From Candidatus Omnitrophica bacterium CG08_land_8_20_14_0_20_41_16 (GTDB lineage: Bacteria; Omnitrophota; Gorgyraeia; Gygaellales; Profunditerraquicolaceae), in NCBI GenBank assembly GCA_002774445.1, contig PEYI01000086.1, forward strand, positions 1-33,279: DNA of 33,279 bases. Reading direction: 5' to 3'. A program made the position numbers and the translations under genes. This document shows positions 2,217-6,747 of this stretch, piece by piece; position 1 is the stretch's first letter, and every line of letters starts with the position of its first letter. The notes under the pieces were generated by a model. That model was not told the DNA's origin. It searched no databases and was given only the letters and a program-made list of their open reading frames with translations.

Positions 2217-3230
2217 TTAAAACTGTTTTAAAAATCTTAAATCATTCTCATAAAACAACCGGATGTCATTTATCCCATATTTAAGCATGGCGATTCTTTC
2301 CACGCCCATGCCAAAGGCAAACCCGGTATATTTCTTAAAATCAATATTTACGTGTTTAAAAACATTGGGATGAATCATCCCTGAGCCCAAAATCTCAAGC
2401 CAGCCTTTCCTCCCGCAGACTGAACATCCCTTGCCTTTACAAATTATGCAGGATATATCCACTTCTGCCGAAGGCTCGGTAAAAGGAAAGAAGTGCGGCC
2501 GGAAACGCATCTTAATATTTTTCCCAAAAATAGTTTTAGCAAAAACCTCCAATATCCCTTTTAAATCCGAAAACTTAATCCCTTCATCTACCATAAAACC
2601 TTCTACCTGATGGAACATAAACGAATGCGAGGCATCCACTGCGTCCGGGCGATATACCCGGCCCGGCACCACCACGGCTAAAGGGGGCTTGCGCGATTGC
2701 ATCACGCGTATTTGCACCGGCGAGGTATGGCTGCGTAAAAGCATCTTAGGATAATCTTTTAAATAAAATGTATCAAATGCCTCACGAGAAGGATGTTCTA
2801 AGGGAATATTTAAGCCGGTAAAATTATTGTATTCAGTCTCTATCTCCGGGCCTTCAACGACAGAAAAACCCATACGCTTAAATATTGAGCAGATCTCATC
2901 AGTAACCTGGGTCAAAGGATGGAGCCGCCCCAACTCCTGAGCAATCCCCGGCATACCAATATCCCAAGGTTCCAGCTTCTGTTGTTTTGAGCTTACGCTA
3001 ATAGCTTTTTGTTTTTCTTCAATCAGAGAGAGAAGCTTATTTTTCAGGGAATTAACCTGCTGGCCAAAAACAGGCCTCTCTTCTTTCGCTATCCCGGATA
3101 TAGTGCTGGTTAATTGGGTTAGGAGCCCTTTTCTCCCTAAATATTTCAGGCGGAAATGCTCTAAGCTTTCCGGAGAATTTACATTACTTATTTCTGTGTC
3201 TATTTGCGCAAGAATAGCGTTAATATCCAT
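2217..3230 (-). CDS. pheS: Phenylalanyl-tRNA synthetase alpha subunit
   Basis: This is the catalytic alpha chain of phenylalanyl-tRNA synthetase. Visible features are an N-terminal coiled coil (about 1-85), then the class II core with motif 2 near FRPHFFPFTEPSAEVDISC, a Cys cluster (CIICKGKGCSVCG) typical of many bacterial PheS proteins, and motif 3 in FGMGVERIAMLKYGI near the end. The length of 337 is normal. The chosen ATG gives the standard N-terminus MDINAILAQIDTEI and makes the gene overlap the preceding exported-protein gene by 31 bases. pheT follows after a single base. The pair is the tail of the thrS-infC-rpmI-rplT translation cluster, from which it is separated by the trk block. Confidence 0.97.
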   Translation of the reverse strand: MDINAILAQIDTEISNVNSPESLEHFRLKYLGRKGLLTQLTSTISGIAKEERPVFGQQVNSLKNKLLSLIEEKQKAISVSSKQQKLEPWDIGMPGIAQELGRLHPLTQVTDEICSIFKRMGFSVVEGPEIETEYNNFTGLNIPLEHPSREAFDTFYLKDYPKMLLRSHTSPVQIRVMQSRKPPLAVVVPGRVYRPDAVDASHSFMFHQVEGFMVDEGIKFSDLKGILEVFAKTIFGKNIKMRFRPHFFPFTEPSAEVDISCIICKGKGCSVCGRKGWLEILGSGMIHPNVFKHVNIDFKKYTGFAFGMGVERIAMLKYGINDIRLFYENDLRFLKQF

Positions 3231-3670
3231 ACTAAGAATAACACCCCCAATAATATCAATGCCTGATTTCTTTTTGCCGGATTCAATCTTTCCCGGGTAA
3301 ATCTCCCGGAATCTATCTTGCGTAAAGTTTGCGCGTGTATATCCAAGTCTCCGCCATGTTCAGGGCAGGCACGGTGAAAGACCCCGGAAACCTCAATAAT
3401 ATCTCCTTTTGCCTTATAACTCCCGGTATAAGTAATTTCTCTGGCTAAAGAGAAGGGAATCCATATACCGACGGCGTTTATCCCGTCATTAACATTCACC
3501 CAAGCGAAATCAGCGCGCTTCATCACCTCGCCTATAACTTCGCCTTTATAGGTAATTATTTTACCGTCTAATTGCTTAGCGTTATTAATAAGTTCCGTGC
3601 TGGATAAAGGCTGCGCATAACAAACAGAGAACAGAGAACAGAAAACAGAGAACAGAGTAAAAATCCTCAT
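3200..3670 (-). CDS. Small exported OB-fold-like protein with C-terminal membrane anchor
   Basis: The frame is open back to 3892, but the plausible start is the ATG at 3670. It gives a signal peptide (MRIFTLFSVFCSLFSVCYAQ) on a 156-residue protein, and everything upstream is palindromic repeat and the end of trkH. The mature part has a beta-rich segment (KIITYKGEVIGEV, WVNVNDG, KGDIIEVSGVFHRACPEHGGDLDIHA) that resembles small OB-fold tRNA_anti-like domains. It ends with one hydrophobic helix (ILLGVLFLVWILTLF) and LRK, so it should sit on the outer face of the inner membrane. The signal peptide is encoded by a five-unit 7-nt tandem repeat. Function is unknown. It lies between trkH and pheS and overlaps pheS by 31 bases. 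Confidence 0.7.
   Translation of the reverse strand: MRIFTLFSVFCSLFSVCYAQPLSSTELINNAKQLDGKIITYKGEVIGEVMKRADFAWVNVNDGINAVGIWIPFSLAREITYTGSYKAKGDIIEVSGVFHRACPEHGGDLDIHAQTLRKIDSGRFTRERLNPAKRNQALILLGVLFLVWILTLFLRK
3623..3657. repeat. 7-nt tandem repeat (aacagag x5) in a signal-peptide coding region
   Basis: Five units of aacagag (the third is aacagaa) run without interruption and encode the hydrophobic LFSVFCSLFSV part of the signal peptide on the minus strand. A change of one unit would shift the frame just after the start codon. Confidence 0.85.
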
Positions 3671-3680
3671 CTGTAATCTG

Positions 3681-3752
3681 TCCCGACGCGCTATTTTTAT
3701 ATTCGGTCGGGATCCCGACTTTACGCCGGGATAATCTGTAATCTGTAATCTA
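3681..3752. repeat. TCCCGAC/GTCGGGA palindromic element with 7-nt repeats
   Basis: TCCCGAC (3681-3687) pairs with GTCGGGA (3706-3712), and a second TCCCGAC starts at once (3713-3719), partly answered by CCGGGA (3726-3731). Copies of taatctg flank it (3732-3745, and one just upstream). It fills the space between trkH and the start of the exported protein. The same 7-base core occurs near 10080 and 11071. Confidence 0.7.
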
Positions 3753-3756
3753 ATCA

Positions 3757-5259
3757 TTATTTTCCTTTTATTGCTGCCACAAAAAACCCAATCAAGGTAA
3801 ATACCGACATAAACTCTAAGCGGCCCGCCCACATCTGAAATATATAAGTCATCTTCAATACTGCCGGCATAGAGGGCGCGGTTATCCCGCAAGACAACCC
3901 TACATTCGCCGCGGCTGATGTAGATTCAAACAAGGATTCTAAAAACGGGTAGCCGTAAAACATCCCCACACAAGAACCTAACCCATATAAAACCAAATAC
4001 GCCAAGGTAATTAATAGCGCACCCCTAACCTGCTTATCCTCCAAGAAAATTTCTTTTATATGATGAAACTTCTGGACCACAATTGCCCTCTCAGGAAGAA
4101 TTATCCTTTTGATATCCTCTACCAGCGCTTTAAAGATTATGCCTATCCTGAGCATTTTAATCGCTCCGGTAGTAGAGCATACAGCGCCGCCTAAACCCAT
4201 AGCCAAGATTACCCCCACCAGTGCCAGATGGCTCCATTCATTCACAAACTGCCGGGCATATATGGTCTGGAAACCTGTTCCGGTATGCCCGGAAATAAGC
4301 TGGTAGAAGCCTTTGCGAAAAAGCATGACCGCCTTAGGATAAATACCTGCTTGAGTCAATCCTGTAGCGGTAATAGAAAATGTGATTATAACCGTTATAA
4401 ATAGGGTAATGGTCTCTATATTTTTAAAGATTTCTTTGCGATTACCCATCCAGATATGGTAGTGCAGTTTAAAATTAAGCGCGCCCAAGATCATAATGGC
4501 AATAGTTACAATTTCGAAGACAAAGGAGTGATAATAAAGAATGTTTTGTGACTGTGGGGCAAAACCGCCGGTATCAAAGGCAGCCATGAATACGCAGGCG
4601 CCATGGAAAAAAGCATTGGATGGCTTCATCCCGCCCAAGGCCCCGACTATACCTAAAATAAGGGTCCCTAAAATCAAATAGACGATACTTACTAACCATA
4701 TGAATCTTGAAGTATGCATCACATTCGGCATTATCTTTTCGTCGCGCGCCTCGCCTACATACATCTTAAATGCCCCGGAGGCCCCTTTAACGAAAAACGA
4801 AAGGGCAATAATTACGATCCCCTGTCCGCCGATAAACATAATCAAATGGCGCCAGAGATTATGCGCCAGAGATATATGGTCTAAATTTTGAACTAAGGTC
4901 AATCCGGTAGTAGCAAACCCGGACATAGAATCAAAACAGGTATCTAAGTAGGATCCCCAATGGCCGCTTAGATACATCGGTATCGCGCCTAAAAGCATAG
5001 CTGCCAGCCAGGAAAGAGAGACAACGATCATCCCTTGCATCCAATTAAGATCGCGCTCGGTATAACATATTTTAGTGAGAATAAGGCCAAAGATTAAGCC
5101 TATTTCCAGGCCAATTAAAAAATCTAATGCAGGATTTATTTCTCCTGCGCCTAAACCTATTAATATAGGTATAATCATAGTGCAGGCGAGGCCTAAGATG
5201 ATCTTACCTAAATAATAACCTACAATCTTAATATCGTGGATGGTGGGCTTTAAAATCAT
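3757..5259 (-). CDS. trkH: Trk-type potassium uptake protein, membrane subunit TrkH
   Basis: This is the potassium-translocating membrane subunit of a Trk/Ktr system. The 500-residue protein shows about ten hydrophobic segments and four P-loop repeats with the filter glycines visible: SGFATTGLTL (about 113), FDTGGFAP (about 229), SGHTGTGF (about 323) and AAANVGLSCG near the C-terminus. The start codon overlaps the stop of a 37-residue membrane peptide (ATGA), and two TrkA-type subunits lie just upstream. The three Trk genes and the small peptide form one unit that is likely co-transcribed with the ribosomal-protein genes before it. Confidence 0.95.
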   Translation of the reverse strand: MILKPTIHDIKIVGYYLGKIILGLACTMIIPILIGLGAGEINPALDFLIGLEIGLIFGLILTKICYTERDLNWMQGMIVVSLSWLAAMLLGAIPMYLSGHWGSYLDTCFDSMSGFATTGLTLVQNLDHISLAHNLWRHLIMFIGGQGIVIIALSFFVKGASGAFKMYVGEARDEKIMPNVMHTSRFIWLVSIVYLILGTLILGIVGALGGMKPSNAFFHGACVFMAAFDTGGFAPQSQNILYYHSFVFEIVTIAIMILGALNFKLHYHIWMGNRKEIFKNIETITLFITVIITFSITATGLTQAGIYPKAVMLFRKGFYQLISGHTGTGFQTIYARQFVNEWSHLALVGVILAMGLGGAVCSTTGAIKMLRIGIIFKALVEDIKRIILPERAIVVQKFHHIKEIFLEDKQVRGALLITLAYLVLYGLGSCVGMFYGYPFLESLFESTSAAANVGLSCGITAPSMPAVLKMTYIFQMWAGRLEFMSVFTLIGFFVAAIKGK

Positions 5260-5369
5260 GGTTTAAGCAAAAGGCAGATAAGAAACGCCGCAAGCATTAT
5301 AAAGAAAGCGTATAATATCTCCGTAGATATGCCTAATATGATATTTAACGGAAGTTTTATCTTAATCAT
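5256..5369 (-). CDS. 37-residue single-span membrane peptide of the Trk operon
   Basis: A short frame fills the gap between the second trkA and trkH exactly. Its ATG (5369-5367) overlaps the trkA stop as ATGA, and its TGA (5258-5256) overlaps the trkH start as ATGA. The product begins MIKIKLPLNIILGI and is one hydrophobic helix (about residues 7-34) ending LLLKP. Position, double overlap and topology suggest a small accessory subunit of the potassium transporter, comparable in size to KdpF of the Kdp system, although I see no sequence relation to KdpF. Translational coupling to trkH is likely. The gene is short enough to be missed by default gene callers. Confidence 0.72.
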   Translation of the reverse strand: MIKIKLPLNIILGISTEILYAFFIMLAAFLICLLLKP

Positions 5370-6028
5370 AATTTACCTACCAGTAAATTCAAAAGTTGCG
5401 GCTCATTACCTACAAGTGTTAAAGCGACCACATCATCCCCGGATTTAAGTATGGTATCCCCCTTAGGCACAATAACCTCTTCGCCCCGCAAGATAGAGAC
5501 CAAAACCGAATCTTTGGGAAGGACAATGTCTTTAATCTTTTTATTAATTACCGGCGAATCTTTCGGCAGGTCCACGCGCACGATAGCAAGCTTGCCGCGC
5601 TTAAAACTCATCAGGTTTACAAAATCCGAGAAGGACACTTCTTCCTCAATAATCTTGGCGATTATCTTGGTGGAATCAACCGGGACGTCAATACCTAATT
5701 CACTAAAGGTATGCTCGTTGTCGGGGTTATTCACCCTGCCGACTGTGCGCTGGATATTAAACCGCTCTTTGGCTAACTGACAAACAATCAGATTATCCTC
5801 ATCATCCCCGGTAACCGCAGCCACTATGTCTGCCCGGGCTATGCCCGCCTCTTCTAAAATCCTCGGGTCGCAGCCATCGCCATTAATCACTAAGGCGTCC
5901 ATACCCTTAGCCGCCTCCTCGCAGATAAGTTTATTCTTATCCACGATACTGACGGTATGTTTGTTTCTTATGAGCCTTTTAGCTAAGAAATACCCTATCT
6001 TACCTGCGCCGACTATTATAATATACAT
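5366..6028 (-). CDS. trkA: TrkA-family potassium channel regulatory subunit (second copy)
   Basis: This is a cytoplasmic nucleotide-binding regulator of the Trk channel. An N-terminal RCK Rossmann domain (MYIIIVGAGKIGYFLAKRL, with GxGxxG) is followed by the acidic strand end IVDKNK and a C-terminal RCK_C domain (about 135-220). The open frame extends six codons upstream (MEVCNG), but those codons are the end of a palindromic repeat that supplies GGAGG 10 bases before the ATG at 6028, so I take that ATG as the start (220 residues). It follows another trkA by about 70 bases and overlaps the small membrane peptide by four bases. Two single-unit TrkA proteins may form a hetero-octameric ring in place of one tandem TrkA. 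Confidence 0.92.
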   Translation of the reverse strand: MYIIIVGAGKIGYFLAKRLIRNKHTVSIVDKNKLICEEAAKGMDALVINGDGCDPRILEEAGIARADIVAAVTGDDEDNLIVCQLAKERFNIQRTVGRVNNPDNEHTFSELGIDVPVDSTKIIAKIIEEEVSFSDFVNLMSFKRGKLAIVRVDLPKDSPVINKKIKDIVLPKDSVLVSILRGEEVIVPKGDTILKSGDDVVALTLVGNEPQLLNLLVGKL

Positions 6029-6083
6029 ACCGTTACAGACCTCCAATTATCCCCGCTACAAAATAGTTTGTAATGGGATACAT
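6023..6083 (-). repeat. Palindromic element carrying a Shine-Dalgarno, at the trkA start codon
   Basis: Direct repeats ATACAT (6023-6028 and 6078-6083; ATGTAT on the coding strand, which is the start codon plus the next codon) flank a 49-base segment. On the coding strand the segment runs from CCCATTACAAAC through ATAATTGGAGG to TCTGTAACGG directly before the ATG. Its ends are imperfect inverted repeats. A longer relative lies at 14017-14104 before ndk. Confidence 0.7.
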
Positions 6084-6099
6084 TATGGCCTCTTAAATT

Positions 6100-6747
6100 T
6101 TAGAGCAGCTTAAACTTTTCTTTTACCTTATCAAGGCTGACGACCTTGATTACCGCCATTAATACATCTTTGGCCTTAAAGATAGTATCTGCTTCCGGAA
6201 TAATAACTCCGGAGAGCCTCCTAATAGCCACTACCATGAATTCCTGGGGGATATTTATAGCTGCGGGAGTCTTGCCGATAAGATCATCCTTAACTTCAAT
6301 CTCAAAAACTCCGAGATCCTTGGTTTCAATAAGATAGCTGGAAAAACGGCTTTCAATAATTTTATCTCTTAACATGGCGGCAAAAAGCGTTGTCCCGCTT
6401 ATAATATCTAAACCCAATGCCGCGTAGATATGCGCGCGCTGCGGATCATACACGCGGGCGATAACCTTAGGCACTTTAAATATTTTCTTAGCCACTTGCG
6501 CTGAAATTAAATTAGTGTTGTCGCCGTTGGTAACGGTGCAAAAGGCATCTGCTTTTTCAATTCCCACCTGTTTTAATAACTCAAGGTCAAAACCATTTCC
6601 GGCCATGGTTAAGCCGTTAAAGGTACTACCCAACCGCTCAAAGGAATCCCGAGACTTGTCAATTACAACGACATTGTGGCCTTCGTTAGAAAGAAGCTTT
6701 GCCAGCTCCGCTCCGACCCTTCCGCAACCAACTATTATAACATACAT
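6100..6747 (-). CDS. trkA: TrkA-family potassium channel regulatory subunit (first copy)
   Basis: This is a cytoplasmic RCK protein with an N-terminal NAD-binding fold (MYVIIVGCGRVGAELAKLL, GxGxxG, VVVIDKS) and a C-terminal RCK_C domain (about 130-215, including VFEIEVKDDLIGKTPAAI). Its 215 residues equal half of the duplicated E. coli TrkA, and a second half-size copy follows, so the pair replaces the tandem protein. It starts 28 bases after the rplT stop with AAAGGG upstream, so it is probably read from the ribosomal-protein transcript. Confidence 0.93.
   Translation of the reverse strand: MYVIIVGCGRVGAELAKLLSNEGHNVVVIDKSRDSFERLGSTFNGLTMAGNGFDLELLKQVGIEKADAFCTVTNGDNTNLISAQVAKKIFKVPKVIARVYDPQRAHIYAALGLDIISGTTLFAAMLRDKIIESRFSSYLIETKDLGVFEIEVKDDLIGKTPAAINIPQEFMVVAIRRLSGVIIPEADTIFKAKDVLMAVIKVVSLDKVKEKFKLL

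Follow-up and report, generated by a model that had tools for sequence, protein, structure and literature searches.

A conserved single-helix peptide encoded before a divergent TrkH clade in Omnitrophota, probably an accessory subunit of the channel

Introduction

Studies of the potassium channel TrkH and its regulator TrkA have treated them as a two-protein system. Here we ask whether a short open reading frame (ORF) that lies between the genes of the two proteins in an Omnitrophota bacterium encodes a protein of its own and, if so, which partner this protein serves. The window, i.e., the whole stretch of DNA that was analysed, comprises 33,279 bp (contig PEYI01000086.1, assembly GCA_002774445.1) and stems from a bacterial genome of 1.18 Mb that is 90% complete. 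Its nearest named relatives are metagenome-assembled genomes (MAGs) of Candidatus Omnitrophota (e.g., JAGVER010000014, with 88% TrkH identity). Loci from relatives are identified by numbers with the prefix L. Searches of the open-access literature turned up no description of a small subunit for TrkH. A third, tightly linked helix that occurs throughout a phylum would show that the K+ transporter superfamily has small subunits of the KdpF type in more than one of its branches.

Results

The small ORF is located on the minus strand at positions 5256–5369, where it fills the gap between a trkA-like gene (5366–6028, minus strand) and trkH (3757–5259, minus strand), as the initial annotation had proposed. 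The stop codon of trkA and the start codon of the ORF share an ATGA at 5366–5369, and the stop codon of the ORF and the start codon of trkH share another at 5256–5259 (both minus strand). Translation from 5369 to 5256 yields MIKIKLPLNIILGISTEILYAFFIMLAAFLICLLLKP*, a peptide of 37 residues with N-terminal positive charges, one predicted membrane helix and the motif G13-I14-S-T-E17 (residue numbers are those of the window peptide). The trkH gene encodes 500 amino acids (PF02386, E = 1.9e-39) and belongs to a divergent TrkH clade with Lys or Arg at residue 19, within helix 1 of domain 0. The adjoining trkA-like gene encodes a single RCK unit with TrkA_N and TrkA_C domains (PF02254/PF02080, E = 1.5e-30 and 5e-13); its start was taken as the ATG at 6028, and the ORF list has a TTG at 6046. 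A second trkA-like gene, also single-unit with TrkA_N/TrkA_C by Pfam, lies in tandem with it (6100–6747, minus strand).

The double ATGA, which the initial annotation had emphasized, holds in the window but not as a general rule. An overlap of −4 with trkH was present in 94 of the 158 loci with a motif-bearing ORF, and an overlap of −4 with trkA in only 21 of the 78 family loci that have an adjacent trkA; gene starts in these counts were set at the nearest ATG and may deviate by a few codons. Gaps of 40–270 nt occur on one side of the ORF at some loci, so that an exact fit is not an essential feature. Promoter matches near the ORF were no more frequent than expected by chance.

The ORF itself is retained throughout the relatives. 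Within the family of the window, trkH was found in 86 of 108 genomes, and a profile search located the small ORF upstream of trkH in 83 of 85 loci; one exception is a contig edge (L065), and the other a real absence at a second paralogue (L076). G13 and E17 are invariant in the 81 aligned peptides. A profile of the peptide alone, searched with no use of trkH, had matches in 100 of 384 Omnitrophota genomes. Outside the family but within its order and class, 47 matches were retrieved, none of them away from trkH: 45 directly precede a trkH that belongs to the divergent clade (46–76% identical to that of the window), and the other two come right after trkA on contigs that end there. When the search was reversed and started from clade trkH genes with no profile match in their genome or contig (L247–L280), the gap in most of them still contained a short ORF for a hydrophobic peptide with the G...E pattern. 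Two loci labelled Planctomycetales/Planctomycetota (L201 and L235) carry the same trkH clade (75–76% identity) and are probably mislabelled Omnitrophota MAGs.

An automatic rule recognized the motif ORF at 158 of 170 distinct trkH genes, to which L119, with GA for GI, can be added. The remaining 11 consist of contig ends (L065, L262, L279), degenerate ORFs (L261, L273, L274), loci with no ORF (L076, L248, L250) and TrkH of another clade with 30% identity (L282, L283). Counting only clade trkH with readable upstream DNA, the G-I-x-x-E ORF is present at 159 of 165 loci, with three degenerate and three lacking. As the automatic rule picked ORFs by G...E, the invariance of both residues in that count is partly by construction; their conservation is also seen in the family upstream search, the phylum-wide profile search and the reverse scan of the gaps, none of which used the rule. 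The frame, its hydrophobicity and the GI..E motif are thus kept phylum-wide, which is the kind of conservation between trkA and trkH that the initial annotation had asked to be looked for. Clade TrkH with no peptide occurs in genus g63 (L248, L250) and at paralogue L076, and the peptide is therefore not indispensable. A natural fusion of peptide and TrkH was not encountered among the 158 motif-ORF loci, where each ORF has its own stop codon. Plasmid-borne TrkH proteins served as the sole sample from outside Omnitrophota, and the best 40 were all less than 32% identical.

The pattern of substitution indicates selection on the encoded amino acids. Over 27 disjoint pairs of sequences, dN/dS was 0.25 in frame (bootstrap 0.19–0.32) versus 0.88 and 1.16 when the same bases were read in the two alternative frames. 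Pooling of all usable pairs gave 0.11–0.17 for the peptide and about 0.06–0.08 for TrkH; the peptide is thus less constrained than the channel yet clearly selected. Between the window and its nearest relative (L002), 67% of the synonymous and 9% of the nonsynonymous sites in the peptide have changed. Judged by these rates, the small ORF is a genuine protein-coding gene, with purifying selection confined to its own reading frame. This selection, together with an ORF in the same place at nearly every relative's trkH, also bears out the earlier opinion that the arrangement is hard to obtain by chance.

The 158 motif-bearing ORFs encode peptides of 28–52 amino acids (median 38), all of which contain a 19-residue stretch that exceeds the usual hydropathy cut; each has a single hydrophobic stretch, in agreement with the one membrane helix originally assigned to the window peptide. 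Positive charge prevails on the N-terminal side in 110 peptides and on the C-terminal side in 15, and is equal in 33, from which an N-in/C-out topology is predicted. Counted from the Gly, conservation peaks at positions 0, 4, 7/8, 11/12, 15/16 and 19, a helical repeat (p = 0.003, or 0.005 when G and E are left out) that places the conserved residues all on one face of the predicted helix. An alignment that combined short and long peptides split the helix and was set aside. Periodic conservation of this kind resembles that of a helix that packs lengthwise against one side of a partner.

One conserved face would suit any helix-helix contact, and the peptide may also be an insertion or assembly factor that is needed only during the synthesis of TrkH and is not a lasting subunit. 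The position of its gene just upstream of trkH and coupled translation would fit this role as well, but we consider it unlikely. Assembly factors usually act in trans and need not adjoin every paralogue of the protein they serve, although this argument does not cleanly separate such a factor from a stable subunit.

The constant neighbour of the peptide is clade trkH, whereas trkA and kdpDE-like genes replace each other. Second trkH paralogues (62–65% identical) have their own peptide and no adjacent trkA in L072, L074, L075, L077, L084 and L123, and in L133 the pair of peptide and trkH is accompanied neither by an adjacent trkA nor by a DUF4118 kinase or an OmpR-type regulator. The ORF hence follows trkH in gain, loss and duplication (159 of 165 loci, and also at a paralogue that lacks trkA). 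Evolutionary distances of the peptide have a partial correlation of 0.29 with those of TrkH versus 0.11 with those of TrkA, a weak but consistent sign that they track TrkH beyond TrkA. Taken together, gene neighbourhood and distances tie the peptide to TrkH rather than TrkA. A small subunit of the potassium transporter, as first suggested for the window, is supported as the best reading of a frame whose hydrophobicity is conserved in relatives with the same gene order.

In L123 (1000–5056), the peptide and the trkH paralogue are preceded by a DUF4118 histidine kinase and an OmpR-type regulator that resemble KdpD and KdpE; kdpFABC was absent from the stretch of L123 that was read. Sequence that resembles a KdpDE-like regulator is also present at the upstream ends of L076 and L077.

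It is improbable that the peptide binds TrkA or a KdpD-like sensor kinase instead of TrkH, or that it is a free regulatory membrane peptide. Such a role would agree with its usual position beside trkA and with the binding of KdpF to KdpD of Mycobacterium in a two-hybrid test (PMC3618439), but clade trkH is the only neighbour that is always present, and the only domains matched by the TrkA-like proteins are TrkA_N and TrkA_C, which are soluble. Moreover, L281–L283, which encode Omnitrophota TrkH proteins of other clades (32% identity in the case of L281), have trkA 15–56 nt before trkH and yet lack the ORF.

That the ORF is only a leader or translational coupler that carries ribosomes from trkA to trkH, and its peptide has no role, accords with the frequent overlap with trkH and with the two overlapping junctions in the window, but is largely refuted by dN/dS and spacing and hardly credible, since selection acts at the amino-acid level and preserves a motif, the ORF persists at loci with a distance of 40–121 nt to trkH, at which coupling is unlikely, and at loci with no preceding trkA, and trkA overlaps trkH directly in L248 and L250, so that no coupler is needed.

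Returning to the peptide as a subunit of TrkH, we infer that domain 0, which consists of two extra N-terminal helices, is the likeliest docking site. In the TrkH of the peptide-less genus (L248, L250), 39% of the conserved positions are broken in residues 1–88 and 4–5% elsewhere, the most skewed pair of 157. Correlation with the peptide amounts to 0.70 for domain 0 of TrkH, barely more than for other segments of the channel (0.65–0.68). An AlphaFold2 model of L116, in which the stop codon was read through as Gly, gave a TrkH part that matches 6V4K and 3PJZ and a peptide helix with a pLDDT of 49–59, whose placement is not confident.

A possible contact within domain 0 is Lys/Arg19, one of the positions that are conserved and charged in this clade but not in the TrkH of E. 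coli and Vibrio; it is present in 155 of 157 clade TrkH proteins, and both references have Leu. It lies 8 residues past the preceding charge, and the Glu of the peptide lies 8–12 residues past the last basic residue; because of this similar spacing, the two could share the same depth if both helices start inside. A pairing of the two residues is a guess: two TrkH proteins that lack Lys/Arg19 are still accompanied by a Glu-bearing peptide, and the peptide-less genus retains Lys19.

Genus g63 (L248, L250) is unusual in that trkA directly overlaps trkH, Met28 is replaced by Glu, and exceptional divergence is confined to domain 0. Glu28 as a compensation for the lost peptide was considered and rejected, as L254 carries Glu28 alongside the peptide and the peptide was lost only once.

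On the other side of trkH, at positions 3200–3670 (minus strand), a gene encodes a protein of 156 amino acids with a predicted signal peptide, an OB-fold domain and a C-terminal membrane helix. Of 119 related loci, 118 have this gene after trkH, and the stable unit is therefore peptide, trkH and OB-fold protein, with trkA genes present or absent. The AlphaFold model of the protein has a pLDDT of 95 and many OB-fold matches in the PDB, and its Pfam matches (tRNA_anti-codon, DUF4131) are weak only. This undescribed membrane protein is likely to be a further part of the Trk system.

Between trkH and the OB-fold gene, the window contains a short repetitive intergenic stretch (3620–3760; AACAGAGAACAGA, TAATCTGTAATCTGTAATCT) that overlaps the start region of the latter. 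Repeated or palindromic intergenic sequence is also inserted beside the small ORF in L279 (1–204, reverse strand), L262, L004, L015 and L025. Contigs break at L279 and L262, and L279 has a tandem repeat of about 44 bases.

Discussion

The small ORF probably encodes a single-pass membrane protein of about 28–52 residues that is an accessory subunit of one divergent TrkH clade of Omnitrophota. The peptide would be made together with TrkH through coupled translation, inserted with its N terminus inside and its C terminus outside, and packed lengthwise on TrkH, most likely at domain 0. Its invariant Glu, which would be buried, may pair with the clade-specific Lys/Arg19 of TrkH, and by analogy with KdpF beside KdpA the peptide could stabilise the channel or tune its gating. 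The TrkH of this clade would then be a system of at least three parts (a TrkA pair, TrkH and the peptide), and possibly of four if the OB-fold membrane protein is included. A more far-reaching version, which we regard as speculative, would have peptide, TrkH and OB-fold protein form a fixed cassette in which an intramembrane charge pair of Glu and Lys/Arg19 sets the gating, and which is combined with either a TrkA pair or a sensor pair of the KdpDE type, the latter then controlling a channel and not a pump.

If the peptide is a subunit, structural or transport work on TrkH of this clade that omits it would deal with an incomplete complex. It would also offer a testable model for the modulation of an RCK-gated channel by a single helix.

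Searches of Pfam, NCBIfam and the PDB assigned the peptide to no family. The window peptide had no match in Pfam or NCBIfam, and its 81 aligned relatives yielded no convincing family in either database even at an E value of 10. Matches to rhodopsin in a profile search of the PDB were attributed to chance. Membership in KdpF (PF09604) was rejected, as none of the 81 peptides matched a KdpF model of Pfam or NCBIfam at E ≤ 10; the only match to a KdpF model in the genome of the window is weak (E = 0.22) and lies elsewhere than the small ORF. KdpA was not found in this genome (90% complete), and the peptide adjoins trkA and trkH instead of kdpA, kdpB or kdpC. Hydropathy and charge bias agree with a single helix of about 30 amino acids with a predicted N-in topology, as expected of a KdpF.

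Among characterized systems, TrkH–TrkA of Vibrio parahaemolyticus (3PJZ, 4J9U, 6V4J–L) has the same channel fold and an RCK regulator (E = 8e-55), but it has Leu at residue 19 of domain 0, where the Omnitrophota clade has Lys or Arg. A paper on its structure mentions no small subunit (PMC6987127). CydX, named as a small subunit of cytochrome bd (PMC10903887), is likewise a very short one-helix protein with a large membrane partner that is easily overlooked in annotation; its partner and sequence are different, and no relation is implied.

The closest parallel is KdpF. KdpA and TrkH belong to the same K+ transporter superfamily, and kdpF is the first gene of kdpFABC, ahead of kdpA. Both KdpF and the Omnitrophota peptide have about 30 residues and one membrane helix, and both are encoded directly upstream of a subunit of this superfamily (KdpA for KdpF, TrkH for the Omnitrophota peptide). 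An N-in/C-out orientation is reported for KdpF, with two-hybrid data placing its N terminus inside (PMC3618439), and is predicted for the Omnitrophota peptide; in the KdpFABC pump, KdpF contributes one helix that stabilises the complex (PMC8385062). The Omnitrophota peptide differs in having no match to KdpF models, a conserved G...E motif on one face, and TrkH instead of KdpA as its partner. By analogy, it is best read as a small-helix subunit of a K+ transporter that is not KdpF by sequence but resembles it in kind and serves TrkH.
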